A stretch of DNA of 64,000 bases, taken from assembly GCF_963678975.1 (NCBI RefSeq), contig NC_089282.1, positions 62,001 through 126,000 on the forward strand. The letters are read 5' to 3'. The notes below the pieces were generated by a model. It was not told the DNA's origin and did not search any database. It worked only from the letters and a program-made list of their open reading frames with translations. Source of the stretch: Dysidea avara. Taxonomy: Eukaryota > Porifera > Demospongiae > Dictyoceratida > Dysideidae. Below, one piece after another: positions 1-21,677 of the stretch. The number at the start of each line of letters is the position of its first letter. Position 1 is the stretch's first letter. The position numbers and the translations under genes were made by a program.

Positions 1-44
1 TTAGGAATTTTGTTCAGCCGGAATCAGATAGAGCATAAGGAGTT

Positions 45-236
45 TGTCGCGAGCCACACGACAATTAACGACCCGGTTCACAGCTACTACAATGCAGAGC
101 TGCAACTTTTATTCGTACAATAACTAACTCACTTAGCAACGGCCTTTACTGAGCCAGCTAAAAAAACCGGTTCAACAAGTTATACAAGTTACGTAACATA
201 AATACACGTAATTAGTTTCTCGCGTGATCCGCGACA
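45..236 (-). repeat. 3' LTR of the BEL/Pao element
   Basis: It begins TGTCGCG and ends CGCGACA on the plus strand, giving a short terminal inverted repeat. It matches 21361-21567 over most of its length but lacks about 20 bp present in the other copy. The end of the polyprotein reading frame runs into it and stops near 189. Confidence 0.88.
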
Positions 237-507
237 CTCCCCAGGAGGGACATCATCATCATCAGGGTCAAGCCACAACTTCAGCATACTTCTTGCTGCA
301 ATGGCTGCATTACAAGTCGGCTGGCTTGTCCTTGGTGTACACGAGTCAACTGGAGCATCATTACTCTCATCATCATTCAAGTCTATCTCATGGGGTATCT
401 CATCAATGTCACTACCACTATTCAGTTTACTGTCAGTATCCTTGTTCTCCATGTTAGATACATCAGTGTCAATAGTTGTTTCATCTGGACATTCAATAGG
501 GTACAAC
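189..507 (-). pseudogene. C-terminal tail of BEL/Pao pol, cut off by a MITE
   Basis: The reading frame begins LYPIEC, a motif typical of the very end of BEL/Pao polyproteins after the integrase. An acidic tail follows, and the stop lies in the 3' LTR. The upstream part of the same domain resumes at about 957 on the other side of an inserted inverted-repeat element (508-951). The acidic Asp/Glu-rich tail is poorly conserved and I assign it no function. Confidence 0.65.
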
Positions 508-951
508 TAGTCTCGTGTGGCCAGACCGCTTTTTTCCGTATACTGGGTGGGAAAAAAAGGGTCTGGTGCAACTCCAATAGCTGTTTACTTCTGAGCCGTC
601 CCCACATTCTGGGGACGCTAATTGAATAACATTGGTCACAAAGGAGGTGCCATGACATCAGTAAACTACGAAGTATTCCTACACTCCTGCTCCGGTTGTG
701 AGTCTTGTTACACGATGAGGATTAACTTTCAAGACGCTATAAAAGAGACATCGGAGCAAATTATGATCCGTTTAAAGAATAAACAGATCTCTAGTTAACT
801 TACTGACGTCATGGCACCTCCTTTGTGACCAATGTTATTCAATTAGCGTCCCCGGAATGTGGGGACGGCTCAGAAGTAAACAGCTATTGGAGTTGCACCA
901 GACCCTTTTTTCCCCACCCAATATATGGAAAAAAGTGGTCTGGCCACGCGA
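508..951. mobile_element. Inverted-repeat MITE (TAGTCTCGCG family), copy 1, inside pol
   Basis: The left arm starts TAGTCTCGTGTGGCCAGACC and the right arm is its reverse complement. The two arms are about 170 bp each around a short spacer, so the element is a long foldback. A nearly identical element lies at 26310-26767. The right end has lost a few bases: ACAAC before the left end (503-507) recurs at 952-956, consistent with a longer duplication partly deleted. It interrupts the retroelement pol gene, so it is younger than that copy. Confidence 0.85.
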
Positions 952-956
952 ACAAC

Positions 957-2354
957 ATACTGACTGCTCTATTAAGGTACTTGTTTGGTGCAACATTAAC
1001 CTTTGCTGATCTAATTTTCTGGTCCTTTTCCTTTATAACTTCAACAATTCTACCAACTCTCCAATGTCCACGAGGTTAATTCTCCTTTACCAACACAACA
1101 TCACCAATTTTGGGAGGTGTTCAGTGTTGGTATGTTCTTTGATCCCTTCAATGGCACCTGTGATTTTTCTCTTAGACTTAAGAGATATCCATTTCTCCAT
1201 AAAATCCAAAATTGGTTTAGACGATTCTGTCCTCTCTTCCAAGTTTGCAATAGTGCTTGTGAAGATGTTGCTTTCTTAGCAACCTCAAACTCTGGGTCAG
1301 GATCATCCAATACATTGGGAAAGATGTGTTGTGAATGGAACGACAGAAAATTTGATGGTGTGAGTATCATACTAGAATTGATGTCATCATCCACATATAC
1401 TAGTGGGCGGGAGTTCACCATTGCTTCTGTTTCTGTTAAAGTTGTGACTAACTGCTTTTCTGTCAAGCATTGATTTCCAATGGTTTTCCTCAGAGCTCTT
1501 TTAGTTAAACCCACCAATCGCTCATAAAAACCTCCCATCCATGGGGCCAACTCAATAATAAATTTCCATTGAATACCTTGTTTGGAAAGGAAGTCATCTG
1601 ATATTTGAAGCTTAGCATTACTTAACATTTGTTTAACTGCTTTAAAATGTTTTGCATTGTCAGAAATTATTTGTCGTGGAACTCCACGGCGAGCCATGAA
1701 ACGACGTAAGCACAAAAGAAATTCATCAGCAGACATACCTTCTACTAGTTCTAAATGTATAGCTCTTACCACCATACAGGTAAACAAGCACACCCATACC
1801 TTCTTGTAGATTGGTTTATCACCATTTGCGTACTGCTTGATATAAAGTGGCCCAAAGTAATCTAGCCCTGTGTATTCAAATGGTAGAGCTTCTACAACTC
1901 GTTTCTTGGGCCAGGGTGGCATGTCTGGCTTTCTATAAGCAGTTCCTTCACACCGACAACAGACTCTACATTGTTTCAACAGCTTTCTAACAGTTGACCT
2001 GCCATGTGGAATCCAATATTCCAACCTAAGTTGAGCTAAGGTTTGAGAAACTCCAGCATGAAACACTCTTTTGTGACAGACAAGTCTGGTGTAGTGCTCA
2101 TCCTTTGGCAGCAGTTTAGGACATTTCATTGCTTGATTCAAGCTAGTGGCATTTTCATACCTTCCATGGCATCGCAGCAGACCAGTGTCATCTTGCTGAA
2201 GGTTCAACTGATTTCTTAAATTGTTCTTACTTCCTCGAAGTATGTCTGGGTAGTACTTGTACTGGATGTAAAGATCCCATACCAACCTTGCTTTCTGTAA
2301 TTCCTTGACTGTTAGAGGACCAGAATAAGATACTCTTTTTCTCAGATTATTCAC
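957..2354 (-). pseudogene. BEL/Pao integrase region of pol
   Basis: The integrase has an HHCC zinc-binding region (H..H in HKRVFHAG, then CRVCCRC) and the catalytic core with Asp in GLDYFGP, Asp in IISDNAKHF and Glu in GGFYERLV. A divergent C-terminal domain follows. The open frame ends at 1101, where it breaks. A stop codon also lies near 1077 in the continuing frame before the MITE. This enzyme would join retroelement cDNA to host DNA; this copy cannot make it whole. Confidence 0.85.
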
Positions 2355-3573
2355 AAATCTTAGCTGTGACTCTTACGAGCTTCAACAATGAGGAACAACG
2401 GCTCTCATTAATATCTGATAGATTTAACAATTGTGGAATTTCTTGTGAGAGATCCTCCCTAGACAAAAGACTAGCCTCAAACATTACATTATTGCCCTTT
2501 ATTTCACTGTCAACATCACCAGTCTTGCACTCTGGGATCTTGAAAACTGGCCACTGTTCTTCAAGGTTTTTTAACCATGTGGGACCCATCCACCAGATAG
2601 ATGATGTTAGTTCTCTGGGAGACTTTCCTCTAGTTGCCAAGTCAGCAGGATTGTCTTCTGATGAAACATGTTTAAAGGTTACTTCTTTCAGTGATTTGAT
2701 TTCTTTCAGCCTATTGGTCACAAATGCAAACAGTGGCTTCTTGGGCTGAATCCAATGTAACACACACATAGAATCAGTGAAAACAATTGTATTGGTTACC
2801 TACAAGTGAAGTTCACACTTGTCACGAACTTGAGGGCACGTACTCCAATGAGAACTCCCATTAGCTCCAATCTAGGAATTGTCATATTCTGTGGAGCTAG
2901 CCTAGTCTTTGGTCTACCTTACATGAACCAGAAAACGACTGGTGCAAGTAAATAACTGTGGCATATGCCTTTGCTGAAGCATCACAAAAACAAACAAGAC
3001 TGTACACAACTGACTTCTCTTGGGTGATACCAATGTATCTAGGTAGATGACACAAAGGAATGTCCTTTAGTGCCTCAATAACCTGTAGCCACATTTCTAG
3101 CTGCTTTTCATTCAACTTTGCATCCCATTCATGCTTCTCCATCCATAGGGTCTTCATAAACAGTTTGGCATCAAGAACAGTTGGAGAAAATAACCAAGTG
3201 GATCAAAGACAGAAGAAATCACTTGCAACACCTTTCTCTTGGTCCAAACGCAGCCATCATTACTAATAGAAGGACCAGGTACTGATAACATATCATTGAT
3301 CAAATCCCACTGATACCTAGGACTTTGTGTTCAAACTTTCCAACTTGGTCTTCATATGGAACAAAATCCATAAACTCCTTAGAATTAGAAGCCCATTCTC
3401 TGAGGTTCATATATAGAGGCTGCTGCAAACAGGCTCTTAGCTTCAACATAGAGATCCTTAGCTTGACTGGGTGTGCTGACTCCTGTTATAACATTGTCAA
3501 CATAGATATCTTTCTGAAGTTTCTTAGCAACAGGTAAATCACTTTGTTCTAGATGGTAATTAATGGTAGCTGC
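2347..3573 (-). pseudogene. BEL/Pao RT C-terminal part and RNase H, broken
   Basis: Translation just downstream of the stop at 3574 gives the RT active-site box YVDN (the BEL/Pao version of YxDD, near 3505). RT-thumb and RNase H sequence follow, including a CFCDAS motif at about 2990 in the frame 2897-3157 and a connecting region at 2347-2769. At least two further frame breaks lie between about 3150 and 3420, so this part of pol is a relic. Confidence 0.75.
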
Positions 3574-6342
3574 CTAAAGGAATGGACTGGAGATTACACC
3601 AAATGGTACTCGACAGAAACGATAAATCTGTAAATTGTTTTCTATATCTGTCCTTTTAGAATCTTGTAGCCAAAGAAATCTTGTGGCATCTCTGTCCCGC
3701 ACCTGAAGTCCCACATTCAGAAAGGCCTTCTCGATATCTCCAACCACACCAATTGGAGAAAGCCTGAATCTGACCAACAGTCCATACAAGCTAGGCAATA
3801 TTACAGGCCCCCTATACAAACACTCGTTTAGACTCTTGATATCTTTCTTGGTTTTTGCAGAGGCATCGTAAACTATCCTCACCTTTGTGGTGTTCTTTGC
3901 TGGAGTAATCACTGGGTGGTGGGGGATATAGTGTTTGATCAAGCCTTCACTTGATGTACTAGTGACCTTCTCAATAATGCCACGATTCAGTTGGTCTTGT
4001 ATTATCTCATTATACTGTTTGAAAAGCTTAGGGGTCTTGGTCAATTTCTTCACTGTTGATCTCAGTCGTCCAACTGCCAGCTGATAGTTCTGTGGCAGAT
4101 CTGGAGTACTCTCTCTCCACAGCCAAGTGACCAAGTACCTTCCATCAGCAAATGTTACAGTCTTAGAAAAGTTCTCAATAGCAATTTCGTCACTTTGTGA
4201 TGGCGAGTCAGTAATGCCTATTGACTCCAGGTTCCAGAAATGTTCCAGGGAGGGCTTAGGGGAGAGGGAAGGATCTATGCTTGTCAGCATATGAGCAGTA
4301 GGTTTGATGCCATTCGGGGCAGATCCAACAGTGCTAACTAGTAAACTAGATTCATCGTTGTTAACAGCTGGTTGCTCAACTCTCCCACCAAGGATCCAAC
4401 CAAGCTTAGAGTGAAACAAGCACAGACCATCACCTAAATCCATCTTTCTTGGCTCTAACAAATCAAAATAGTAGTCATTACCAATGAGCATTTCAATGCT
4501 AGACGACTCTGCATGACATGGTAAAGAATCAGCCAGCTTCCCATCAACAGATTCTCCTTTCAAGAATTCTATGTCTTCCTCTTTCAGAGGAACACGGTTT
4601 ATCTTCCCAGTAATGTGAGGGACCACAGTGATGTTCATTGGCATAGCACTACCATCCTTGAGAAGTAAGCTTAAGCTTCCTTGCTTACAGTTAATGTTTT
4701 GGGGTTTGTTCGAACCAAAGGTGACAACTGACAGCTTATCAGTTCTATCCAATGTCAACTGAAGTCCTTTAGCTAGGCTTTCAGTAATGTATGACCTCTG
4801 GCTACCTGAGTCAAGGATAAGACGCACTGATACTGATGAATTATCCTTTGTGTTCCTTACAGTTACAGTTGCAGTTTGCATCAGTACCTGGTTGGTACTG
4901 GCTACCATAGCACCTTCTGGCTTGGGACCTTCAGCACTGATTATTTGTGGACTAGGGGGCTGCTGGAATAATGTGCTACAAAGGCTTCTGTGATGACTCC
5001 CCTTCTTTCCACAATGAGCACAGGCTCTGTCAACCTTGCAGTCCTTCAAAACGTGGCCATTCTTTAAACAGTTGAAACAGCACCCTTTCAGTTTCTCTTT
5101 CCTGGCTTGCAGTGTGCTATACTTGGAGCATTCATCAGACCAGTGAGTTTCAGCACAGTAAAAACAACGAGGCTGGTAAGATTGGGTCCCTCTCTGTGGA
5201 TTGTTACCTTTGTATTGACCATTCCCAGCTAATAGTCCTCCTGCTGTAGACTTCAATTTTCGCTGACCTCCATGATTGGAGTTAGAACTAGTTGGTGCTT
5301 CATGATCAGATGATTCACTATTTGCCATTTCCATGGCTGAAATGTGTCTCCCCAGCAACATACGCAACTTAGTAACAGTCCATTCTTCATCCTCTGGCTT
5401 CTGCATGTATAGTTGGTAGTGAACTTTCTGAGGAAGCTTCTCAAGTATTAAGGCAATGAAGTGTCGATGGTCAATGTTCTCACCAATTGCCTGTAGGCTT
5501 CGCAAATGGCATTCAATGGTGTCATAGCAGTGCCTTAATTGTGCAACATGATTTTTTGCAGGTGGCAGATGTGATAAACTGTGACAATGTGCATCGACAA
5601 TAATCTGTGGTCTTCCAAACCTTCTCTTCAAAACATCAACTACAACCTTGTAGTTATCATTGGATAACTGATATCCTGCAATTGCCTCTAAATCCTCCCC
5701 CCTTAACTTTGAATCTGAATTTAGGTAGTTGAATTTGTCAACTGGTGCGTAGTCTGCCTTATCTACTGATGCTTCAAATGCATCCTGCCACTTTAATACT
5801 TCTCCTTTAAAAGGGGCTATATCAAGCTTGGGTGGTTTTATTGCTGCCATTGATGGCTGTGACCAGCCTATTCTGGATATTCCTGATTCCATGCTTCCTG
5901 TTGATGGTGATTGTAGTTGTCTAACTTGTTCTTGCACTTGCTGGAGTCTTTCTTCTAATTTCTGACTTTGTTTTGACTGAGTTGATCTACGCTTTCTCTC
6001 TACTTCTTCCTTAAATATTCTCAATTGTGAAATTCTGTCAATAATTCCATCAGTAAACTCCCCATCTGCATCGGCTAGGGTACTTTGAAATTCCTCTGCT
6101 GACAAGGTATCCTCACTCTGCTCAAGTGCATCTGCTAGCTTTTCATTGGCCGCCTCCAAGCGTGCCAACTTAGCTTCGAGATTTAAAATTACTCTGCTAA
6201 TTGATAGCAAGTATCTGTCAACCTCTCTTTCTTCGTTCAGCTCTAAGTCTCTCTGTAATAGTGAGTTTGCTTCCGCTTCTTCTTTAGTCAATGCAGTCCT
6301 TGCCCTCGTCCTGTTGCTCTTCAAACTACTAATTGCCGGCAT
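3574..6342 (-). pseudogene. BEL/Pao gag, protease and N-terminal RT
   Basis: A 922-codon frame begins at an ATG just inside the element. In order: a charged coiled-coil-like N-terminus (residues about 20-150), a gag core, cysteine clusters resembling zinc knuckles (FYC..CS, then CCFNCLKNGH..C and CAHCGKKGSHH..C, about residues 395-465), an aspartic protease motif LILDSGSQ (about 510), and RT containing VGDIEKAF with its first catalytic Asp. The frame ends at an in-frame amber codon directly after VISSPF, and RT homology continues without a shift beyond it. This is typical of a single inactivating substitution. Confidence 0.9.
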
Positions 6343-6553
6343 GGCTAGGTGAGCTCGGTGGGCGTAGCTACTTGACTAACTTCGAACCTAGTGAAGAAAA
6401 CGGACAGCAAAGAACACCCTTAGCAAATTGGTTCAGTAGCTTGCCTTAACTGGTACCGTTAAATTCAGTTTCACTACGGTACCACAGCTTATTCGCGTCG
6501 GGTTACAACTTCTTCAATACAGCAACAGCTGTTCAAACGTCGGTAGACACACC

Positions 6554-6571
6554 TCCCGGGTTTCGGCACCA
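6554..6571 (-). other. Primer-binding site matching tRNA-Phe
   Basis: The plus strand reads TCCCGGGTTTCGGCACCA, which equals the 3' end of metazoan tRNA-Phe(GAA), known to end ...CCCGGGTTTCGGCA, plus CCA. On the element's minus strand it is the complementary primer site. It should directly follow the 5' LTR; instead the nested transposon begins 8 bp beyond it. Confidence 0.8.
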
Positions 6572-6579
6572 AATGTCGC
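6571..6579. other. Left copy of 9-bp target duplication AAATGTCGC
   Basis: The identical 9-mer occurs at 21358-21366. Part of it is the LTR end TGTCGC and part is the first bases of the PBS. The uninterrupted retroelement can therefore be recovered by removing 6580-21366. Confidence 0.9.
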
Positions 6580-7460
6580 GGGTTTTACTCTTTTCACCAC
6601 CTTTCATAACCCTTACGTAATATTAAGCTCAAAAGCATCCAGACTTCCTACTGTAGTTGTTGCTCTCTCTCTTCGACTTTAGGGCACGCATCTAGTAGTT
6701 GCCGCGAGTAGTCGACTTTAGGGGATGCGTCCAGTTGCCGCGAGTAGTAGACTTTAGGGGAAGCGTCCAGTAGTTGCCACGAGTAGTAGACTTTAGGGGA
6801 AGCGTCTAGTAGTGTTAGCGTTAGGGTTAGGGTTCAGCTTTGGTTTCTTCTTCACCTTTAGGGTTAGGTTCTTACTATATACAGCTTATTTCGTTCGAGG
6901 GGTCACTAACTCATAAAAAAGGAGTACGGATTTCACAATCTTGAACAAATTTCCAAAGATTTCACGGATTTCAAAGGATTTCACAAAATTGAACGAGGAC
7001 TGCAAAATCTGCTTTTAAATTACAAGAGTGACAAGTTCTTGAAATCGCTTTTAGCTAATAGTGGGAGAAAGAAATAGAAATTTACGCAGGAGCAAAGCTT
7101 CACGAAATTGAGAGGAATCGCGAAGCCATATAAAACCAGGAGCTAAGGAAAAGGAAACCCTACAAAACCAGGAGCGACTTGAAACAAGGCCAATCATTCA
7201 GGGAAAATGCTGAGCGAAACTCCTCAAAGCTAGGAGCAACTGTCAAAGCCCTATCTGGTGTAAAACCCCACAAAACCAGGAGCATCTGTATGCTTAAATT
7301 TTATAGTTTGTGTGTTGCTAAGCTTATGTTGGGTTGTACTTATAATAGGCATTTAGTTTTCTACTCTTTCCCTGAAATTTTTGGTGAGTCAATACAATCT
7401 ATCCTGTTTGTCTATTTGTATACAGTCAAAGTATAGTCCTACAAAACAGGAGCAAAATCC
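6580..7460. repeat. Left subterminal region with tandem submotifs
   Basis: About four copies of a roughly 45-bp unit with CGACTTTAGGGG and GCGTCCAGTAG lie at 6668-6815. AT-rich GGATTTCA repeats follow (6929-6990), then at least five dispersed copies of (AC)AAAACCAGGAGC between 7125 and 7455. The last motif recurs in inverse orientation in the right arm. Repeated subterminal motifs of this type often serve as transposase-binding sites; that role is inferred. Confidence 0.75.
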
Positions 7461-7696
7461 CCACCAAATGATTTCTACAATTTCACTTACATGGCCTCTC
7501 CTGGTATCATAGGATTTCTTGCAGTTATAAAATTAGCTTCCTGATACTAGCTACTTTTAGCATTTACAAAACTGCGCAATAGTCTTGTATGAACCGGTCT
7601 AGTCAATAATCAAATTCATAATAAGAATTTTTTAGTTGTATGGTGACATTATACACTGCATATTATACATAGCATCTTGACCACTCCCTATATATA

Positions 7697-7732
<36 letters not shown>

Positions 7733-7791
7733 TATATTATATTGCTACTTCATTTGTAATAATACAATACCTTGTTCAGCTAATAGCTCAA

Positions 7792-10700
7792 TTAGTTTAC
7801 TAAATAGTATGCATAAGATCCCATGGATCTTTTAGGATAGCTTCTTTCATTAAAGGGAAGTAATCGTTTGTCTTGGGAATTCATTCCATCATATAATAAT
7901 ACATTTTGCTCTTCAAGTATACCACTGATGTGAAATGATTTCTATGGTGAATCGAGTATCCTGCCAGTTGGTAGGCTGTACCATACACTGATATATTTGT
8001 TGGCATATTCAATTCACTGGCTTTAATGTTGCTGATATCAAATGGTAATACCCAGACTGATTTGGCTGTAAAATGGCTACTCTGTACAATATACTTTCCT
8101 CTGCATTCATAAAGTGTAATTCTCTTCTTAGGATTTTCTACGTCTTGTCTATCAGTAACTGCTGATGGTGCATTAGCAGGAGGACAATGCTGAAAATCTG
8201 CACCACAGTATCCTCGCATCCTTTCTCCAGAATATGGAAAATGTTCCCTTAGTTGTTTCTCAAATGCTGTCAGTGAATTTAAGCTGTAAGTGGTTTGCTG
8301 CCTCTGGGCGAATACAGTTGGGCAATGCAGCGAATCACATTTTAGTTTCAGCTGCAGTTTCCACACATGACGAAATGCATACAAACATCTGCTGTATTCT
8401 GACCCATAACAGTCTACTTTACTTTTACTCTGCTTACGACAACCCTTAATCACTGAACTAATGTAATTCAGTACAGTTGTCTTCCCTCCTATAATGTTAC
8501 CATTCAGCATGGCATTGATTCCTGCTTTGAGTGAATCTTCAGCTGGACTTTTGTCCAGCTTGTCAAGGAAACTTGGGATTTGTTGACAATGCAGTAGGAC
8601 AATTGTTAGAAAATTGTCTGATGTGCAGGTATTCGCATATAATGGGTGCTTCCATGGAATTGTGATAGGCAGATAAGATTCATTACAAACAGTTTTGTGT
8701 TCTAAAGTAAACTGATCGTGACCATCCTCAGTTAGGTCTTGAGTTAGAATAAGTAAGTGAACATATAGTTAGCAGTTGATTATATATATGTGACCGAATT
8801 TTAGAAAATCACTCTTATCGGTGCATTCGACCCATCAATTATTTATTCCCATAGATACCTTGAATTAATTTAGAAATGTTTGAAAGTGTTCTCTGCTATT
8901 GACGACACGATGCCAGTTTCAAAACTGCCAGGTGCTACCATAAGGGTGATTTTCCAAAATTCGGTCACATATATAATTATGTATATGAGCACCTGTTGAT
9001 TTAATCTGCACTGGTGGACAACTGGTGACTTCCATCTGACTATGATCATGTCCAGGTACATCTTGAATATTTGCTAACATAAGTCAGGCATGAATTACTG
9101 TGTATAATAAACTATATATTAACCTTCTGGTTTTGTACCAATCTGCACTGGTGAGCAAAGTCTGTCAACTTCCAAAGGACTCTGAACATGTCCAGATACA
9201 TCTTGAGTATTTGCTAACATAAGTCAGGCATGAATTACTGTGTATAATAAACTATATATTAACCTTCTGGTTTTGTACCAATCTGCACTGGTGAGCAACT
9301 GTCAACTTCCAAAGGACTCTGAACATGTCCAGATACATCTTGAGTATTTGCTAACATAAGTCAGGCATGAATCACTGTATAATAAACTATATATTAACCT
9401 TCTGGTTTTGTACCAATCTGCACTGGTGAGCAACTGTCAACTTCCATAGGACTCCCAACATGTCCAGATACATCTTGAGTATTTACTAATGTAAGTAGGC
9501 ATGAATCACGGTGTATAATAAACTATATATTAACCTTCTGGTTTTGTACCAATCTGCACTGGTGAGCAACTGTTAACTTCCATAGGACTCCCAACATGTC
9601 CAGATACATCTTGAGTATTTGCTAACATAAGTCAGGCATGAATTACTGTGTATAATAAACTATATATTAACCTTCTGGTTTTGTACCAATCTGCACTGGT
9701 GAGCAACTGTTAACTTCCATAGGACTCCCAACATGTCCAGATACATCTTGAGTATTTGCTAACATAAGTCAGGCATGAATTACTGTGTATAATAAACTAT
9801 ATATTAACCTTCTGGTTTTGTACCAATCTGCACTGGTGAGCAACTGTTAACTTCCATAGGACTCCCAACATGTCCAGATACATCTTGAGTATTTACTAAT
9901 GTAAGTAGGCATGAATCACTGTGTATAATAAACTATATATTAACCTTCTGGTTTTGTACCAATCTGCACTGGTGAGCAACTGTTAACTTCCATAGGACTC
10001 CCAACATGTCCAGGTACATCTTGAGTATTTACTAATGTAAGTAGGCATGAATCACTGTGTATAATAAACTATATATTAACCTTCAGGTTTTGTACCAAGC
10101 TGCACTGGTGAACAACTGTCAACTTCCATAGAACTCCCAACATGTCCAGGTACATCTTGAGTATTTACTAACGTAAGTCAGGCATGAATCACTGTGTATA
10201 ATAAATTATATATTAACCTTCTGGTTTTGTACCAATCTGCACTGGTGAACAACTGTCAACTTCCATAGAACTCCCAACATGTCCAGGTACATCTTGAGTA
10301 TTTACTAACGTAAGTCAGGCATGAATCACTGTGTATAATAAACTATATATTAACCTTCTGGTTTTGTACCAATCTGCACTGGTGAGCAACTGTCAACTTC
10401 CAAAGGACTCCCAACATGTCCAGATACATCTTGAGTATTTGCTAACGCATGAATCACTGTATAATAAGCTATATATTAACCTTCTGGTTTTGTACCAATC
10501 TGCACTGGTGAGCAACTGTTAACTTCCATAGGACTCCCAACATGTCCAGATACATCTTGAGTATTTGCTAACGCATGAATTACTGTGTATAATAAACTAT
10601 ATATTAACCTTCTGGTTTTGTACCAATCTGCACTGGTGAGCAACTGTTAACTTCCATAGGACTCCCAACATGTCCAGGTACATCTTGAGTATTTGCTAAC

Positions 10701-13700
10701 ATAAGTCAGGCATGAATTACTGTGTACAATAAATTATATATTAACCTTCTGGTTTTGTACCAATCTGCACTGGTGAGCAACTGTCAACTTCCAAAGGACT
10801 CCCAACATGTCCAGATACATCTTGAGTATTTGCTAACGCATGAATCACTGTATAATAAGCTATATATTAACCTTCTGGTTTTGTACCAATCTGCACTGGT
10901 GAGCAACTGTTAACTTCCATAGGACTCCCAACATGTCCAGATACATCTTGAGTATTTGCTAACGCATGAATTACTGTGTATAATAAATTATATATTAACC
11001 TTCTGGTTTTGTACCAATCTGCACTGGTGAGCAACTGTCAACTTCCAAAGGACTCCCAACATGTCCAGATACATCTTGAGTATTTGCTAACGCATGAATC
11101 ACTGTATAATAAGCTATATATTAACCTTCTGGTTTTGTACCAATCTGCACTGGTGAGCAACTGTTAACTTCCATAGGACTCCCAACATGTCCAGATACAT
11201 CTTGAGTATTTGCTAACGCATGAATTACTGTGTATAATAAACTATATATTAACCTTCTGGTTTTGTACCAATCTGCACTGGTGAGCAACTGTTAACTTCC
11301 ATAGGACTCCCAACATGTCCAGGTACATCTTGAGTATTTGCTAACATAAGTCAGGCATGAATTACTGTGTACAATAAATTATATATTAACCTTCTGGTTT
11401 TGTACCAATCTGCACTGGTGAGCAACTGTCAACTTCCAAAGGACTCCCAACATGTCCAGATACATCTTGAGTATTTGCTAACGCATGAATCACTGTATAA
11501 TAAGCTATATATTAACCTTCTGGTTTTGTACCAATCTGCACTGGTGAGCAACTGTTAACTTCCATAGGACTCCCAACATGTCCAGATACATCTTGAGTAT
11601 TTGCTAACGCATGAATTACTGTGTATAATAAATTATATATTAACCTTCTGGTTTTGTACCAATCTGCACTGGTGAGCAACTGTCAACTTCCAAAGGACTC
11701 CCAACATGTCCAGATACATCTTGAGTATTTGCTAACGCATGAATCACTGTATAATAAGCTATATATTAACCTTCTGGTTTTGTACCAATCTGCACTGGTG
11801 AGCAACTGTTAACTTCCATAGGACTCCCAACATGTCCAGATACATCTTGAGTATTTGCTAACGCATGAATTACTGTGTATAATAAATTATATATTAACCT
11901 TCTGGTTTTGTACCAATCTGCACTGGTGAGCAACTGTCAACTTCCAAAGGACTCCCAACATATCCAGATACATCTTGAGTATTTGCTAACGCATGAATCA
12001 CTGTATAATAAGCTATATATTAACCTTCTGGTTTTGTACCAATCTGCACTGGTGAGCAACTGTTAACTTCCATAGGACTCCCAACATGTCCAGGTACATC
12101 TTGAGTATTTACTAATGTAAGTAGGCATGAATCACTGTGTATAATAAACTATATATTAACCTTCTGGTTTTGTACCAAGCTGCACTGGTGAACAACTGTC
12201 AACTTCCATAGAACTCCCAACATGTCCAGGTACATCTTGAGTATTTACTAACGTAAGTCAGGCATGAATTACTGTGTATAATAAATTATATATTAACCTT
12301 CTGGTTTTGTACCAATCTGCACTGTTGAGCAACTGTCAACTTCCAAAGGACTCTGAACATGTCCAGATACACCTTGAATATTTGCAAACGTAAGTCAGGC
12401 ATGAATTACTGTGTATAATAAACCATATATTAACCTTCTGGTTTTGTACCAATCTGCACTGGTAAGCAACTGTCAACTTCCAAAGGACTCTGAACATGTC
12501 CAGGTACATCTTGAGTATTTACTAACGTAAGTCAGGCATGAATTACTGTGTATAATAAATTACATATTAACCTTCTGGTTTTGTACCAATCTGCACTGTT
12601 GAGCAACTGTCAACTTTCATAGGACTCCCAACATGCCCAGGAATGTCTTGATTGTTTGCTTATGTAAGTTGGGCATCTATTACTCTTTATGTACCTTCTG
12701 ATTTTGTACCATTCTGCACTGCTGTACAGCCATCAACTTTCAAAGGACTATGAACACCATGGTTTCCTACCTATACAATGCATATATGCACATTTCTGCA
12801 TGATTTTTTGCTGTATTTTATAAGCTCATATACAGTTATATGTATGTAATATATGGTAGAACTATAATGTCATAAAAATATGTTTGATAACTCACTACCT
12901 TTGGTGCAGACCTAATATATGGTGTCCAGCAATGTTTTGAACTCCTGTGACGAAAGGGCTTGAATATTGATTGGTCTCCAGTGTAATGAATACAAAAGTT
13001 GCTTCCAAACCCCCAATACTCCCATCGCCGAAATCTAGGGTCACCTTTATCTGTATAATAGATGCTAGGTGTCATCCTATAATATATCTTCATTTGTATA
13101 TTATACGTACATACATACATACATGGACATTGTACAACATATGCAAGTAAACGCATACAAATAATTGCACACCTTGCTCAGAACTTTCAATATCAATCCA
13201 GTTAGATCTCTTTTTAATGTTAAAATCAAAGTTGTTGCTTTTTAAGGTGTAAACACCTTTAGTTACCCATCTGTATTCATCACATCTGATTAAAGTGAAT
13301 GACAGCTAATAATATTTATACTGTACATAACCTTTATATGTATCATTTATGTGAACAGTTATATACTGAGGTTACTGAGTTTTGTATTATAGCTAACTGC
13401 TTCTGTCTACTATCTGATCTGCAATAAACGCATTAAGTTTATATCAAGTCGTGAGGCCCATGTAGTATTAGAAGGCAACAGCTGCATGGCTATACTGATG
13501 TAATAGAGTCCCAGTAAACTCCTCAGTTATTTTGGCACTGGCTCACAGGATATCAATGACTATTGCTATAATTCAATTGTGACCCAATTTTTGAAAACCA
13601 TCCTTTTGGCACATTGCAATTGGTCAATTTTCTCTTTTGTAGCTAAAATGAGGCACTGGGTGTTTACCTATCTTGTGTCAAAATTTCAGCTTGATATCTT

Positions 13701-14916
13701 GAAGGGTTCCAGAGATATGGTCAATTTACTGTCTATATAATATACATTACAAAGTAATGTACTGTGAGTGATTAAGTGTGACAAATGGATGACAAGTCAT
13801 TTTGTTTACAAATAATTCCATTCCTACTATATAAAATATGTATAGAGACTTCAATGAAGTGTTCCTGGTCCTTTTCTTGAATTAAATAAAATGTATTGTG
13901 TATATCTCTGTCTAATACTTAGTTTTAACCATTCTAGTATCACCTGAACAAATCACCCTATTTGTAAGTTAATTGCTATCCCACACATTGCAAAATCACT
14001 ACATGGTCTGATAAAATCATCCATATTTCCCAACGGAAAGAAGCTTTAGGTGTGAAACTTCACAGCAAGAAAGGTTTAATAGTTGCCTTATCCAAATGTG
14101 CAAATAAAAATTAATTGAAAAAATTTCAATTGAGTTTTTAATGCAAATTTTGCATGTGCCCAAAAGGATTCATGCATGGTTTTCCAAAGTTAGGTCACAT
14201 TAATTTTATGTTTAGTCACAATAAAGGCAAGCCATGCAAATAAACAGTCCTTCACATGGAGGCCATACAATAGTATGCACTACTAGCTTGGTGATATAGT
14301 TCCGGGCACTTATCATGCACATACATACACTCTTAGCTATAGTCACATATTATATGGTTTTCTTTTATTTGTTTAATGGACAAGAAAAATTACTATATTA
14401 ATACAACTAAATTGATTGGCCTATTGGCCTTAAATATGTCCATATCCAATTTCTTCCCTGAAATATATTCAATGATTTATCAGTTCTTAAACCCATTAAC
14501 TGATTGGGCATTAATCACATCACAGGGTAAAGAATTTCATTTGATTATATGGTCAGTGAAAACTTTGATCTTATATATCTACAAGGAGCTTGGATTTGGC
14601 TGATAACTCTTGTAAAATTGATTGGTGACTAGGGTAGCTAAATAATCTAGCTATGAAAAAGTAGTGAGGTGTTGCTTTAAAACCTTAAAATCCAACCATG
14701 TAGCTACCTTAACTGTTTCTTTCTTGTCTCCCACTGAGATTTATCTGCACCCAGATCAAACAAGAAAATCTGACCTGCTGTTGGGCGAACAGGTGCCACG
14801 GAACTAAACTTATCTTGGAATACAACAGCATTACTAAAAATTTCAATGATTTCCTCTGCAGTCAAATTCTCTAAACAATTGTATTTAATTGGAATGGCAG
14901 CAGGCATGGCATCCAT
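7792..14916 (-). CDS. Multi-exon transposon gene: CG-1-like start, 29 repeat exons, USP-like protease end
   Basis: Exons read on the minus strand: 14916-14708, 13285-13173, 13050-12899, 12770-12695, then 28 repeat exons down to 9073-8993, then 8737-7792. All junctions are GT-AG apart from one repeat acceptor, and the phases agree. The N-terminal part (AGQIFLFDLG, DEYRW, RRWEYWGF, HYTGD) resembles a CG-1-type DNA-binding fold, tentatively. The middle is a 29-residue repeat. The last exon has a Cys box NTCTSDNFL (Cys codon 8625-8627), a His box NHFTSV (His 7935-7937) and then YDG, the layout of ubiquitin-specific cysteine proteases. A 2-nt excess near 7890 shifts the frame just before YDG; the shifted frame stays open to 7792. 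An ATG at 14916 is preferred because the longer frame starts with GTG. Confidence 0.75.
8784..8974. mobile_element. MITE with GTGACCGAATTTT ends, in the last intron of the protease gene
   Basis: The left end reads ATGTGACCGAATTTT and the right end AAAATTCGGTCACAT, about 190 bp apart in a TA-rich target. It lies inside the 255-nt intron between the last repeat exon and the protease exon and contains no coding sequence. Elements with related ends occur at 13579-14199 and 34149-34777. Confidence 0.75.
8993..12770 (-). repeat. Array of 29 small coding exons with mini-introns
   Basis: There are 27 canonical units of 126-138 bp plus a divergent unit at each end (8993-9073, 12695-12770). Each canonical unit is an 87-nt exon (one is 90 nt) with phase 1 on both sides and a 39-50 nt intron starting GTTAATATATAG and ending TTAG. 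The peptide unit starts (A/V)NTQDVSGHVGSPMEV and ends VQIGTKPE, with one conserved Cys in SCSPVQ. Differences include HVQSPLEV and SSMEVDS variants, none with stops. Larger blocks of 254 and 391 bp are repeated almost exactly between 10330 and 12070, indicating recent unequal exchange. One unit (acceptor at 12385-12386) has TG in place of AG. Confidence 0.85.
13579..14199. mobile_element. Diverged MITE with GTGACC ends, in intron 1
   Basis: The left end is GTGACCCAATTTTTGAAAACC and the right end is roughly its inverse (GGTTTTCCAAAGTTAGGTCAC). The internal 620 bp is AT-rich with no supported coding region. It is similar at its ends to 8784-8974. Confidence 0.55.
14200..14700. other. AT-rich intron sequence, no feature recognised
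   Basis: This is the remainder of intron 1 of the protease-like gene. One plus-strand frame of 75 codons (14376-14603) has no recognisable motif and is not called. Confidence 0.5.
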
Positions 14917-15350
14917 CCCTTTCCGATTATCGTCCCCCTGCAGCTTACATGACAACAACACGCCACGTGAAATGACTGAAGGTCGATTTGCTCAGTGTAG
15001 CTAATTAATGACGTAAACTAACTGAACTAATTAGCTACGTAGCTAAATCAACATCTCGTGCTAGATGGAATGATGTCGACCATATTGAATTGCAGCCTAG
15101 CAGAGAGGCAGAGAATAACTAATAGAGAATAAATGTTTTTGACATTCCCCTTGCCAAACCCTGGATCCGCCCCTGCAGTATAAGAACTTATAGCTACATG
15201 CATGATACATTAGTAATTTGCAATTACAACTTGTATGTAGACTATATAGTAGCTAGCTACATATCTAGTTTCCGTTTCATAATTAGCTATATTACAATGA
15301 CATTAACTTCTGAAAAAGCTGGCAACTTGCAAGGTATAGTTGTTGCTATA
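14917..15350. other. Spacer between the two transposon genes
   Basis: 434 bp between the end of the transposase gene and the start of the protease-like gene, rich in AGCTA motifs. It must hold the protease gene promoter unless an upstream exon exists. A possible splice acceptor (CTGCAG near 14940) leaves that open. Confidence 0.45.
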
Positions 15351-18300
15351 TTATAATACAAATGCCTTAGGTGGTCGGCATACTCTTCCTGATCTAGTTT
15401 TGCGTGTCTCAAGTGCTTCCAAGTAATTGTATGAAGACACATCCACTGAGTTAACTACTGAATTAGCAACTGAACTTAATTCATATGTGTCTTTATCTAT
15501 TTTGAGAGTTGATATATTCTCTGGATAAATTTCTTTAAACATTTCTTTAATTCTGACTACACATGGCTCTGTCAGATGGAGAGTGACCCCTGGAAGCAGT
15601 GTTGATTGAAAAATTGATACCACAGCTGTGTCGCAATCAGTTACTAAACAGTTTATTCTGTGCTCACAGCTATATACAGTGCACAAATAGCTTACTAATG
15701 GTAGATATTCATGGACAATAGCATCAGTGTGTATTTCGAATTTTGAATCATCATTTTCACTACCATATCGCTTGTACCACTGGCATAGTACAGAAATCTG
15801 ATCAAATTCTTCAGAAACAACCTTACAATAAGGGATTCTTCTTTTTCCCCCTGAAAACTGCATAATCTTGCCCAGATCCCAAGAATACCCAGTATTTACT
15901 TCAAACACAAACACGCAAACATCTCCAGGACTCACACTCGAGGCTTTAATGGGGAAGCACTTAGCCATGGAATTGGAATAATCGTGTACAGAAGAGGAAA
16001 AAGGTTGCTTTTCTCTTACACGGAACAATCTATCACTAGACAGTCTTTCATTCTCTTGTAATATCCACACCAATGTGGATTTTCGAATATATACAGTGCG
16101 TCCATTGGACAGATTAACCTCAACAAATAAAATATGCTTCTTTTTCTCTCTTTTCATTTTTGAAGTACTCTTTGAATCATTTTGCTTATTAGTAGTATAA
16201 GCAGGTAAATTTATACCTAAATCATTATCTGGCAGTCGACAAAATTTTATGTCTTTGAGCATACAAGTAGCATTTTTGTCTGAGATACCACCACTTTCCT
16301 GCAGGCACTTAATGTCATCTTCAATGCCATCAGCCTGTTCTTCACATAATTCAACATCAGTGTTACCAGTTCCATCTTCATGGTCATCTTCAGCCTCATC
16401 CCCATCAATAAGATCTTCAGTTGATATTGCTTCAATAGCATTAATGCCAGCACTCACTTCATTCCAATGTTGGTTAGCTTTTAACAGAATGTCCATACCT
16501 AATACTTGCAAAAGATTCTTAGCTTCAGCTTTTCCAATTTCTATCCAGTCTTCTATATCTTTCATTGTGACAGCTGATACATCATTGTGAAGCAGCCTTT
16601 GTGCAGAACTAAAAGTTGTTCCATGCTTTCTACGATGCTGCTCTCTTCTAGGAAACAAAATACCGTTTTCTTCACCTTCGGCTTCAAGTATATTTTGAAT
16701 ATGGATTCGATGAAGACGTCGTAACAAACCTAACAGACTAAAATTGATCATGGTGGAGTAAACAGAGCTCATACTCCTGGCTGCTCGAAACAGTTGTTCA
16801 CATGGCTGGGATCCTAAAAGCCAAGGCATTAAAGGGAGGTTGACAGATTTGCAGACTAACAAAAAAACTTATTAAGCAGTGACCGTTAATTTCTGCACAC
16901 AAATAAGCATTTCTTGTGATGAAATTATTTTTAAGGTTATATTCACTGTTATCTAGTATCCACTGTCGCCAATACTGGAAGAAAAACACAGCTGTCCAGC
17001 ATTGACTAATTCGTTTCTTTGGTTCTAAGTCTTTGCACAAAAAAGAATCTATAATGTACCGAATCATTTTAAGATACACTTTTGTACCCAAACACCCACA
17101 TCGATCTAATAAAGTGATAACAGCTTCACTTGTTAAATGATCAACAGCATCAAAATTCTGTCTATCTCTGTGGTCCAAGTCCTTCATTCTGATGTTGTGC
17201 ACTTCTTTTCCATAGTGTTCAAATATCATTTTTAGATCTGCAGCAGCTGCTACATACACTCCCAGTGGTAGAAGTATGCCAGGTTTCATCAGCCTTGCTT
17301 TCAATTTTACCCCCAAATGTACTGTATCTTGTGAAACACTAAAAAGTGAAAGCCTTGGGAGGATAAACCAATCAACCCACTGTGATGAAAGCTTAATATC
17401 TGAGGTCACTGTGCTGGGATCAAATGAAGGCTCTTTCTGAAGTGACAACATGATGAGCATGGCTTTAAGAAGACGTGAATCACCATCAGAGGAAAAGTTG
17501 ATCACTTGTATACTTCTTTTTTCAATTCACTAAAAATATATTTCCAACGAAACAATATAGACTGATAGTCAAACCTATTGTCAGTACCTATGCAAGCTAA
17601 ACAGAAGGAAGGAATTCCATCACACAGAGCCTGTGCAACATATACATATGCAAACTTAGATAATGGTCTTGTCTTAAACATTTCAGTAATTGCATCAAAT
17701 GAAGTTGCTTCATATACTCCACATTGTATCATCCCATCCCTGATAGGTAATACAAACCCTACGCACTGATCACTGTTGGAATCATACTCCACTCGATTAA
17801 TGATTCTAGTTGCATCCTCTGATATTGATACAACAAATGGGCATTTAAATTTTGTAAATGTAACACCAGTTCATCAAACATGAAGATTCCTTCCGGAACA
17901 TCTGAATATTGAGAATGAATCTTGTTTCTAATGAGAGAAATGGAAGGAATGGCTGCAGGTATATTTCTGTGTAAAAATTCATATGCTATGGGCCCTGACC
18001 ATATAAACAGAGAAATAGAAAATTTTATCACGATTTCATCATGGCGACGACCATTCGGCCTTTTACTTTCATTTCTCACACAATTTTCATACAGTTTCTG
18101 GAGAAATGCAGAGTTAAAAACAACTTGACTGGGTTTATTTGGTTGTAAGTTTGAATTAATAAATGTAGAAAGTTGCTTATTTTCTAAGATTAACTTGTCT
18201 ATTTGCTTAATAATAGGGAAGTATTCGGTTATTTTGTGTGAATGATTACTGGCTGACAAAGTTTTTAAATATGAACGTGCTTTCCTGGACCAATCAGTGT

Positions 18301-19258
18301 CAATAGTCATTTCTTCATCCCCTCCAACCTGACACTTAGATCCAGATTGAGAGTTGGAGGGGATAGGTGAAAATTTTTTTGACTAGGTGTATTTGAGCTA
18401 GCATCTTGATCAGTTAATGGTAGTTCCCGTTCTGAATTAGGGGATGTCAAATCATTGTCACTCTCAGAACTGCACAAGGTGGAACTGCAAAAACAAAACA
18501 ATCAACAATAAGACACAATGCCTATAGCTAAGCAACGAACATAACTGTTAGGCATGCATAATTAGCTACTGAGGTAACCAGCTAACATTACAATTAAAGA
18601 TATATACATTTGAAACAAAAAATAAACACCTTTCATTTTGGGATGTGACAGCAGTAAACAATAGTGGCTTCTGCGTAAAGTTATCTTTCCTTTTGCTATC
18701 CTTTGCACAAGACTTCAGCACATGTTTGGTCCAATTAGATAGCATAAAGCCAGAACCCCTTTGAAATAATCTAGTTTTTGTTTTCTTGGAACAGCGCAGA
18801 CACCGCACCACCACAATGTGATTATCTTGAGATGTAGATAATGCTGGAGAAATAATAATTTCATAATCATAATTTTCTTTCAAATTCAAATTGGGTTGAC
18901 CACGAGTCCATTTTACCATTTGCTGTCTAACAGCTGCATAAATGTCATCGGGATCAAATAAGATTACAGGTTTAGAACTTGGTTGACACTTTCTCTTATC
19001 TGCTAGAGCTTTAGGCAGATCTGAAGCTCTCTTTAGTGGTTTAGTAGAGATGTCATCCTTTATTTCAGATACAAAGTTTTTCAGCTTTGCGGCATGAGCT
19101 GGAAGAAATTTAAAAACTGGTTTTGTTATCTGACCAAAATATGCTTTATCTCCAGGAAAGTTATCGGATATAAAATCTTCAATCTCCTTTAGGCTATCTG
19201 GCACTATCATCAGCTCAATCGCCTCTCTGTCAACATAACCTTCAAGAATATTATACAT
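15351..19258 (-). CDS. Zinc-finger DDE transposase of the nested transposon, frame-broken
   Basis: ATG at 19258. Exon 1 ends at 18630, a GT-AG intron spans 18629-18485, and exon 2 continues to 15351; total about 1,250 codons. Exon 1 has a C2HC pattern (CLRC ... HVLKSC, 18710-18810), a likely DNA-binding finger. The catalytic pattern is Asp in MFDEL (about 17873), Asp in FSSDGDSRLL (about 17485) and Glu in SQPCEQLFR (16797-16799). The roughly 230 residues between the last two are as in P, hAT and related enzymes with an insertion domain. Frame breaks fall at A/T runs 18374-18380, 17850-17853, 17517-17522 and 16861-16867; the protein reads on sensibly in the next frame each time. The C-terminal 300 residues include acidic and Lys-rich stretches. 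Confidence 0.75.
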
Positions 19259-20160
19259 GCAGCCATTAATAGATAGCAGTGAGGTTAGGGTGTATTATGC
19301 ACATTACTATATGCCTATATGCATTATATTATACAAAATTACTTGTAAATAACCAAAATAAGGACACCAACACCGTGCATATTGCAGTGGCAGATCTGTC
19401 TGTCAGTGAATGCTATACTACACTGGAGATCTGCAGTGTGAGAAGTTTATAGCTAAAGCCTGTGAATACAGGGAGTTAGGATCATGCACCTAAGCCTGTG
19501 TAGAATGCAGAAGAAAATCCCAGACCCATGACTTGATCTTCATCAACATGCAATCCAGGCATGCACTGAAGGAGCCACAACAGCTCAATGCCTGTGGGAT
19601 CTGCATGGAATCTTCTTTCCCTTTAATCTGCACTTAAACCATAGGAGTAGCAAACCGGGAGCAAGGGGGCTGCATGGAGTCCCCCTTACGATTTAAACTT
19701 TGAATAGATCGAGATACTCTAATAGAGCAGTCAGTAACTCTAATAAAGCAGTCACAGTATTCAGAGAAGCTGTGGTAGCAAACTGTGAAGCTGTGAGTAA
19801 GGATTTTATGCGCTCTATCAGTGACACAATCTGTGGAGGGCAACCATTCTTAGCAAGTGTTGACCTTTCTTTCTTTCTCTCTCTCTCTCGCTCTTTTCAC
19901 CAAACTAGAGCCCCCTATCTAAACATCTTGCGCCGCAAACACGCCAGCAAAGGGATTAATTAATTAATCTGTAAATGCTGTATGCTATCTCACTATACGT
20001 TGACTAACTAGAAAGTTTATGAGTTATAATAAAGGGTCAGAGCTAATTAGTACATGACATTGTAAATAGCTATTACCGGTATCACGTAAGGCATGCATAT
20101 AGAGTCTATCGGTACCGTGAGTACCGCGGTCATTCGTGCCCTGCATGCTCTCACGACCTT
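19259..20160. other. Transposase upstream region with an interspersed repeat
   Basis: This contains the presumed promoter of the transposase gene. 19700-19925 has a dispersed repeat (GAGATACTCTAATAGAGCAG, then a CTCT-rich tract and a CTTTTCACCAAACTAGAG box) that also occurs at 26890-27075. No gene is seen. Confidence 0.5.
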
Positions 20161-21357
20161 AGCTTACCCGTGGCTAGTAGACAATTGATAACAGTAGGGG
20201 GCAGCTTTCTCTTCATCATCTGTACAAAATCACTGTCATGCAGTTCGTCCATGTCAGCTTCAGATTCTAATCCTTTGCCAGCCATTCCTCAAAGTCAAGG
20301 CAAACAATCTAGCTATATAACAGCAACGAACTTCAGTACAAACCTCCTTTGTTTTTTGTATGCTTTCATGACAGATTTTATATGTCTCCTGGTTTTGTGC
20401 GGCTTCTTTCCTACAGCTCCTGGTTTTGTTTGGCTTCCACAACTCGCTTACTATACAAATCCGAAGCGGAGCGGAACATATAGGATTTCATCCTTACTGT
20501 TGTGCAGGAGCAGTTTACATGGATTCTCCTGATTTTGTGCGGCTTCTTTCCTACAGCTCCTGGTTTTGTATGGATTCCCTGTATGTCTCCTGCTTTTGTG
20601 TGGCTTCTTTCCTACAGCTCTTGGTTTTATTTGGCTTCCACAACTCAAATCCAAAGCGAAGCGGAACATCGGATTTCATTCTTATTTTTCAGCAGTTTGC
20701 ATGGATTCTCTCCTGGTTTTGTGCGGCTTCTTTCCTACAGCTCCTGGTTTTGTATGGATTCTCTGTATGTCTCCTGGTTTTGTAGGGCTTCTTTCCTACA
20801 GCTCCTGGTTTTGTTTGGCTTCCACAACTCAAATCCGAAGTGGAGCGGAACATCGGATTTTATTCTTACATTTCAGCAGTTTGCATGGATTCTCTCCTGG
20901 TTTTGTACGGCTTCTTTCCCACAACTCCTGGTTTTGTTTGGCTTCCACAACTCGCTTAATACAAATCCGAAGCGGAGCGGAACATCGGATTTCATTCTTA
21001 CTTTTGTGAAGGAGCAGTTGAAAGTAAGCTATGGTACCAGAACGAGTAGCTATAGAATCAGAATCACGATAAGAACATAGCTAAGATTTCATATTTCAGA
21101 CAAGATTTCATTGAAGGTGTACGGGATTTCGAAGCAGTTGGTGACCCCTCGATTTCGTTAGTCACATTTATAAGATACAAAAGAAGGGAATCAAGGGAGC
21201 TAGCAGCTGTAGCATAATCGGTAGCACACTGGACCATCACACTGGGATCCTGGGTTCGATTCCCCTTCAGTACTGAACTTTTTTTCGCCTTTTTGGTTCA
21301 CCGTTTTTTGTCTAAGTTCTGTAGGGTTATGAAATAGGGTGAAAAGAGTGATACCCC
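20160..21357. repeat. Right subterminal region with tandem submotifs
   Basis: Several copies of a 100-150 bp unit, with TCCTACAGCTCCTGGTTTTG and a box CCGAAGCGGAGCGGAACAT, fill 20375-21000. GCTCCTGGTTTTGT is the inverse of the motif in the left arm. GATTTCA repeats and GTGACCCCTCG follow at 21085-21150, again inverse to the left arm. The region differs from the left arm by holding a tRNA-like segment in place of the 45-bp units. Plus-strand open frames here are repeat artefacts. Confidence 0.75.
21205..21275 (+). pseudogene. tRNA-like segment (tRNA relic or SINE head)
   Basis: A box-A-like TAGCATAATCGGTAGCAC and a box-B GGTTCGATTCC are spaced as in tRNA genes. The T stem has two outer mismatches and I cannot fold a clean acceptor stem. 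A tRNA-derived SINE head or tRNA relic acquired by the transposon end is the best reading. Confidence 0.5.
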
Positions 21358-21366
21358 AAATGTCGC
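21358..21366. other. Right copy of 9-bp target duplication AAATGTCGC
   Basis: Identical to 6571-6579. It overlaps the first bases of the retroelement 5' LTR. Confidence 0.9.
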
Positions 21367-21567
21367 AAGCCGCACGACAATTAACGACCCGGTTCACTTA
21401 TTAAATACTTTATAAACAAGCTACTACAATACAGAGCTGCAACTTTTATTCGTACAATAACTAACTCACTTAGCAACGGCCTTTAGCCAGCTAAAAAACC
21501 GGTTCAACAAGTTGTACAAGTTACGTAACATAATTACACGTAATTAGTTTCTCGCGTGATCCGCGAC
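21361..21567 (-). repeat. 5' LTR of the BEL/Pao element
   Basis: Matches the 3' LTR at 45-236, with about 20 extra bp that contain TATAAAGTATTTAATAAG on the minus strand, a plausible TATA box of the retroelement promoter. It starts TGTCGC (plus strand) and ends CCGCGAC, one base short of the other copy, then the GAGTT duplication. Confidence 0.88.
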
Positions 21568-21677
21568 GAGTTGAATGATATCAAGTTTTATGGTATTTGA
21601 TCGTGTCTAGTGCTTGCAATTATTGAATATACAAAATAACGTATTGGAGACCGGAAATTGAAAAAGTGATCCATCCA

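Follow-up and report, generated by a model that had tools for sequence, protein, structure and literature searches.

A tandem array of putative coding mini-exons differs in number among near-identical copies of a transposon gene in the sponge Dysidea avara

The present study concerns a tandem array found in a 64,000 nt stretch of the Dysidea avara genome (the window; nt 62001 – 126000 of contig C11), where it lies in the second gene (gene 2) of a DNA transposon. Read on the minus strand, the array is probably an exon variable number tandem repeat (VNTR), a minisatellite whose units are coding mini-exons. The element that harbors gene 2 is P-superfamily-like. Copies A (the window), B and C of this transposon are nearly identical but carry 29, 18 and 15 unit-like exons, respectively (edges included). 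A first-pass annotation of the window had suggested that the gene varies in its number of exon copies, and comparison of the three genomic copies bears this out. What is new here is the occurrence of different exon counts in near-identical copies of one transposon gene.

The mini-exons would encode a flexible linker of 29-residue repeats between a CG-1-like domain and a protease-like domain of USP fold. As each unit carries one exon with phase 1 at both ends, gain or loss of whole units would change the length of this linker without shifting the frame, and the units have a rapid turnover, for which slippage, unequal exchange and gap repair following excision are candidate routes. We infer the splicing of the units into mRNA, the translation of the linker and the repair route by which the count is altered. 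In principle, phase symmetry also permits units to be skipped or included by splicing.

Structure of the array

Tandem Repeats Finder (TRF) called the array at nt 9003 – 12640 (period 137, 27.4 copies, 92% matches). When the minus strand was parsed with the unit exon, the region nt 8993 – 12770 resolved into 29 unit-like exons, 27 of them internal and two of them divergent exons at the edges, as the first-pass annotation had proposed. Each internal unit is 126–137 bp in length (140 bp for the unit with the 90 nt exon) and contains one complete phase-1-1 exon. The previously stated exon length of 87 nt holds for 26 of the 27, the other being 90 nt long and still a multiple of three; the stated intron range of 39–50 nt fits most of the 28 introns, the first of which is 36 nt, so that the full range is 36–50 nt. 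All units of the window copy are free of stop codons, in agreement with the earlier reading, and over the three copies one stop occurs among 55 internal units (in copy B; the total excludes a unit of copy B broken by an insertion).

Between internal units, all 51 simple introns of copies A, B and C begin with GTTAAT and 48 end with AG, the changes being too few for this retention of GT/AG to reach significance. The sole length change among internal exons is one of 3 nt, compared with changes of 1, 2 and 9 nt among introns, a contrast without significance given the few events. The intron and acceptor upstream of the last unit are identical to those of the array units. In the unit with a TG acceptor (nt 12298 – 12384) an AG is located 12 nt inside the exon, and reading the sequence directly shows that its use would preserve the frame. 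Introns as short as those of the array occur in sponges, which counts in favor of coding units: the shortest intron in Amphimedon ribosomal-protein genes is 37 bp and the genome median is 81 bp (PMC3412847).

Reading frame and flanking exons

The exon borders of gene 2 were set by hand from AG/GT dinucleotides and reading frame alone. In the window the gene model forms a single open frame of 33 exons (1279 aa), and the unique exons on both sides of the array join it in phase, as had been claimed. The first three exons, 474 nt in total, finish in phase 0 and the last exon begins in phase 1, so that splicing exon 3 directly to the last exon would break the frame. The necessary shift is provided by the 76 nt exon 4, a diverged unit with its own acceptor, which makes this exon the minimum that the model needs; all later units are multiples of three and phase-neutral.

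A degenerate relative on contig C14 has the same order of N-domain and USP domain as gene 2. Ungapped blocks of the flanking exons compared with this relative gave ratios of nonsynonymous to synonymous divergence (dN/dS) of 0.10–0.37 in five of six blocks, the sixth being saturated at synonymous sites. These values mark gene 2 as a real gene, with flanking exons formerly under constraint. A short element with 43 nt inverted ends (nt 8783 – 8975) lies in the intron that separates the last unit from the final exon of gene 2, and is found alike in copies A, B and C.

Table 1. Features of the transposon in the window and its other copies in the genome.
Feature	Position	Strand	Remarks
DNA transposon copy A, 14.3 kb	6896..21151	-	both genes on minus strand; ends common to copies A–D; 8-bp target duplications
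Target site duplication, left	6888..6895	.	ATTTCGTT
Target site duplication, right	21152..21159	.	ATTTCGTT
Left terminal inverted repeat	6896..6910	+	about 15 nt, 14/15 match right end; by eye
Right terminal inverted repeat	21137..21151	-	about 15 nt; by eye
Gene 1, transposase	15351..19294	-	several broken frame pieces here; open over 1010 aa in copy C
Gene 2 exon 1, start of CG-1-like domain	14708..14916	-	
Gene 2 exon 2, CG-1-like domain	13173..13285	-	low dN/dS vs C14 relative
Gene 2 exon 3, CG-1-like domain (end)	12899..13050	-	phase 0 at end
Gene 2 exon 4, divergent edge unit, upstream	12695..12770	-	76 nt, phase 0 to 1
27 tandem mini-exons	9124..12658	-	26 of 87 nt, one of 90 nt; 26 introns of 39–50 nt
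Unit with TG acceptor instead of AG	12298..12384	-	same in copies A, B and C
90-nt unit	9124..9213	-	3-nt insertion, in frame
Last, divergent unit exon	8993..9073	-	81 nt, phase 1-1
Gene 2 last exon, USP-fold domain	7881..8737	-	early end in window copy
Copy A	window		target duplication ATTTCGTT
Copy B	C11 25.58 Mb		target duplication TCTAAACC
Copy C	C1 60.33 Mb		target duplication AGCAAAGT
Copy D	C4 36.79 Mb		target duplication GGGGTAAC; lacking the part from window position 8367 to 16343
Copy E	C9 16.31 Mb		one end only; match only right of window position 16321
Copy F	C9 0.15 Mb		about 73% match in part of transposase only

Variation between genomic copies

Further copies were sought in the 550.8 Mb genome (108 contigs). 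A DNA search with 1 kb of the array matched only copies A, B and C, which is a lower bound, and copies D and E are without the array. Copy A has 27 internal units, copy B 15 intact ones and the one broken by an insertion, and copy C 13. The sequence around the arrays is far more uniform. To the right, gaps apart, 19/8511 bases differ between A and B, 19/8495 between A and C and 22/8497 between B and C (0.22–0.26%); the corresponding values to the left are 8/2173, 4/2176 and 6/2174 (0.18–0.37%). Provided that the assembly is right, change in array length thus far outpaces sequence change in the remainder of the element.

Maps of unit types in the three copies are the same at the upstream end, much alike at the downstream end and different in the interior. 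Copy A has the block G H G H I, five units long, twice in tandem. Among the 55 internal units there are 22 distinct sequences, with four types private to A, four to B and three to C, and the longest common subsequences of units are 8 (A–B), 9 (A–C) and 5 (B–C) for arrays of 27, 15 and 13. These comparisons point to a fast-changing minisatellite. A part of the difference in copy number could come from collapsed or expanded assembly, near-identical repeats being difficult to assemble, but such an artefact seems very improbable here, as unit order and private unit types differ in a manner that simple collapse of one array would not produce, and the three copies have distinct flanks.

In copy C, gene 2 is open (902 aa, 19 exons, 13 internal units) with a C-terminus, GSYAYYLVN, that resembles those of homologs, and the transposase has a frame of 1010 aa. 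Copy B has its last exon cut by an insertion of ~660 bp, one unit with a stop and a stop in the transposase.

Evidence for and against coding units

The units are likely to be spliced exons of an unconstrained linker. The weight of this interpretation lies in their in-phase fit to flanking exons that were formerly under constraint, and it is further supported by frame continuity, phase symmetry, the need for an edge unit, the splice sites at the edges and the expectation that identical signals are treated alike.

Several observations weigh against it, beginning with the pattern of substitution. Changes were counted by eye in 52 exons of 87 nt (the three 90 nt exons and the broken unit of copy B were left out), each variant once and with gene conversion ignored. 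Of 87 sites, 22 vary (10, 6 and 6 at codon positions 1, 2 and 3), corresponding to 19 nonsynonymous changes (a single nonsense change included) and 6 synonymous ones over 66.7 and 20.3 sites. The between-unit ratio of about 0.97 (0.91 without singletons; 1.12 with kappa 2) looks neutral, unlike the rest of gene 2, and a ratio of 0.3 has a P of 0.007; numerically, this is the outcome that the first-pass annotation had itself named as refuting its reading. The coding interpretation is also burdened by the unit stop in copy B, by the TG acceptor shared by the three copies, and by the GTTAAT donor, which deviates from the usual consensus at positions +3 and +5. Moreover, the frames of the window copy are broken: its gene 2 last exon ends early relative to copy C, and its transposase frame is disrupted by small length differences relative to the same copy. 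The copy with the longest array is therefore no intact gene, and is unable to make the intact proteins.

Two further points on this side concern chance and kinship. When the unit is shuffled by dinucleotides and only AG...GT is asked of the splice sites, 1140/2000 shuffles yield an open phase-1-1 exon of 60–99 nt, and a single open unit is thus weak evidence; stricter splice-site rules, picked after the unit had been seen, reduce this to 277/2000 and 81/2000. No unit was detectable between the two domains of the C14 relative, in a search where the exon score was reached by 34/200 shuffles and that of a two-unit query by 143/200. Since the locus is degenerate, this absence is likewise weak evidence.

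Single comparisons vary: the edge exons show ratios of 0.79 and 0.80 when set against the unit consensus, unit A01 shows 0.28, and A02 and A03 have zero synonymous changes. Nonsense changes make up 9 of the 261 possible single changes in a unit, and one was seen among 25. In sum, the selection tests inside units (codon position, nonsynonymous against synonymous change, nonsense, indels) are neutral or underpowered and give no support for coding. Neutral units argue against a conserved unit sequence, yet are compatible with a linker that is spliced and unconstrained.

Alternative explanations

The neutral pattern would also suit a non-coding minisatellite situated in an intron of gene 2, with exon 4 or another edge exon spliced past the array to the last exon and the open frame of the units a leftover of a once-duplicated exon that now drifts. 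The density of variable sites points the same way, being similar in exons (22/87 over 52 exons) and in 50 nt introns (10/50 over 23 introns), as do the one lost acceptor, the one stop and the frequency of such exons in lax shuffles. We consider this explanation rather unlikely, because phase is kept in every unit (the 3 nt exon change set against the intron changes given above is in line with this, without being significant), because the frame of copy C remains intact through all 13 internal units, and because the last unit shares its upstream intron and acceptor with the array units, for which like treatment by the splicing machinery is expected. A cassette of alternative exons from which a few are chosen per mRNA, as in Dscam, would also profit from phase-1-1 symmetry, which lets any number be used; near-identity of the units (22 distinct among 55) means that choice would add little diversity, and the odds of such a cassette are slim indeed.

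An extension of the spliced-linker interpretation is that the array acts as a length-coded dial. Each of the 51 simple mini-introns, when retained, places a stop at the second codon as counted from the last base of the exon, and their donor looks weak; an added unit would therefore lengthen the linker and also add a chance of truncation before the USP-like domain. In Drosophila P elements, intron retention yields repressor forms. The length of the array might in the same way set the proportion of full-length product to short forms with the DNA-binding-like domain only, possible repressors, with transposition reshuffling the length. Both the dial itself and this regulatory role are speculative and we regard them as improbable.

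Comparison with known exon arrays

By sequence alone, the array shows two features of an exon VNTR: a tandem unit containing a whole phase-symmetric exon, and a unit number that varies between genomic copies. Tandem units of variable number that bear exons are known from host genes, namely LPA KIV-2 (PMC11462820) and SmPoMuc (PMC2576457). In LPA KIV-2, as here, whole exons lie in a tandem genomic unit and copy number sets protein length, but the units are 5.6 kb, each kringle being encoded by two exons (about 160 and 182 bp), and number from 1 to about 40 per allele of a host gene (PMC11462820); those of the sponge are about 130 bp, with one 87 nt exon, and reside in a transposon. The polymorphic SmPoMuc mucins of Schistosoma mansoni have a 27 bp exon per tandem unit, up to 20 highly similar units and variable protein repeats. 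Their units are about 1 kb and mostly intron, in a host gene family with proof from cDNA (PMC2576457), whereas the sponge introns are 36–50 nt and the exons are known from sequence. The view of the first-pass annotation that such a gene would be unusual needs qualification: exon VNTRs as a kind are known, while among the papers listed in a limited literature search of partial coverage, on tandem exons, minisatellites and transposons, none showed an exon array inside a DNA transposon.

Should transcripts confirm the model, the copies would represent a natural series of nearly identical genes, carried by a self-copying element, whose main difference is how many tiny in-phase exons they contain. 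Such a series would allow measurement of how the spliceosome handles 28 consecutive introns of 36–50 nt, of the rate at which an exon minisatellite changes, and of the role of transposition or gap repair.

The transposon and its transposase

The placement of the array in a transposon gene, proposed in the first-pass annotation, is confirmed by shared ends, 8-bp target duplications and homologs of the transposase. Copies A–D have the terminal inverted repeats CGAGGGGTCAC.../...GTGACCCCTCG, and the duplications are present in all four copies with both ends (A, B, C and D). Among 7256 candidates, a search with the 1010-aa frame of copy C found 61 transposase homologs (E 0.001 or better), with precomputed domains of P-element transposase (PF12017) in nine, PHD (PF00628) in 24 and Ulp1 (PF02902) in two. 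They include sponge proteins, two named Amphimedon queenslandica and one eukprot entry with the prefix Em, presumably Ephydatia muelleri. One fragment of the window transposase itself gives a sub-threshold match to PF12017 (E 0.06; 14.2 bits, cut-off 23). No Pfam family was assigned to the 1010-aa frame of copy C, no THAP match was found in the open reading frames scanned (the 5' exons being only partly modelled), and a sequence search of the transposase against solved structures gave no match. The element is thus best described as P-superfamily-like, with its own transposase below the Pfam cut-off. P-superfamily DNA transposons (Drosophila P, Galileo and THAP9-type elements) make 8-bp target duplications, as here (PMC7776569). 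The sponge element differs from these in its length of 14 kb and in having a second gene. In homologs, PHD (24/61) and Ulp1 (2/61) domains are on the transposase itself; here the CG-1-like/USP-like gene is separate.

Inverted repeats at nt 6580 and 21337 were considered as element ends and rejected, the ends common to the copies being nt 6896 and 21151. Outer inverted repeats, GGGTTTTACTCTTTTCACC / GGTGAAAAGAGTGATACCC, flank the element at nt 6580 – 6895 and 21160 – 21356, which suggests that the transposon is nested in another, short inverted-repeat element.

Protein domains of gene 2

The product of gene 2 has a CG-1-like N-domain, then the repeat linker, then a USP-fold domain. The N-domain falls just short of the curated cut-off for CG-1 (PF03859), with 22.5 bits against 23.5 (E 1e-4), and three relatives spliced by eye scored 17.9 bits, 19.3 bits and no match; it presumably binds DNA. 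The C-terminal domain is predicted to have the USP (peptidase C19) fold: the modelled structure has a mean predicted local distance difference test score (pLDDT) of 85.9, and USP-family or Pan2 chains fill its structure listings. By eye, the motif NTC is invariant in 22 of 22 aligned rows, a His is present in all 18 rows that reach its position, and YDG occurs in all 17 homolog rows extending that far, this end being missing from the window copy and present in copy C. By motif, these are the candidate catalytic Cys, His and Asp/Asn. Modifiers resembling ubiquitin or SUMO would be the substrates of the USP-like domain.

Proteins that combine PHD and USP-like domains (P0002–P0021) have a C-terminal domain 36–54% identical to that of the window protein, preceded by a PHD-like region (PF00628 precomputed in 2/21). 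The CG-1-like part matched none of the 82 proteins compared (blastp, E 1e-3). Sequence searches against solved structures returned nothing convincing for the USP-like domain (best E 0.008) or the N-domain (best E 0.07). With the spliced 902-aa product as query, none of 8000 scored candidates reached E 0.001; the candidate list was probably filled by repeats, as a shorter query did recover USP-like homologs. The homolog P0002, used as query on the genome contigs, gave 21 pattern-matching stretches and zero relatives. Matches of the linker to DUF3860, Ntox21 and RHIM were rejected, since each adds up many matches to a single repeat that lie below threshold, no stretch passing alone. The unit core SPVQIG contains VQIG, which resembles the RHIM amyloid motif; as the Pfam score is a sum over repeats, this is a remark only.

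Gene 2 documents a chimeric transposon gene, with an N-domain common to many loci of the genome fused to a domain of USP type; in this group, PHD or Ulp1 occurs on the transposase of some homologs. The CG-1-like N-domain forms a repeated family in the genome (99 matches), and at the three loci examined (L034, L037 and L047) it is directly upstream of a different transposase-like frame. This family may serve as a mobile supply of DNA-binding domains of CG-1-like type. At L047 (nt 2149 – 3142) a stretch of the CG-1-like/transposase gene is followed by a fragment of a USP-like domain, with NNLKYDCF shared at the junction, perhaps an insertion or recombination showing how such fusions originate.

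Other features of the window

Window nt 1 – 6580 contains a minus-strand coding stretch that by eye has the look of a BEL/Pao-type long terminal repeat (LTR) retrotransposon. LTR-like sequence recurs at about nt 21350 – 21570, and the nested elements appear to sit in this BEL/Pao-like retrotransposon. Further downstream there are 74-bp tandem arrays containing 17-bp sub-repeats (nt 49528 – 51258) and a 17-bp tandem array of about 126 copies (nt 57677 – 59806).

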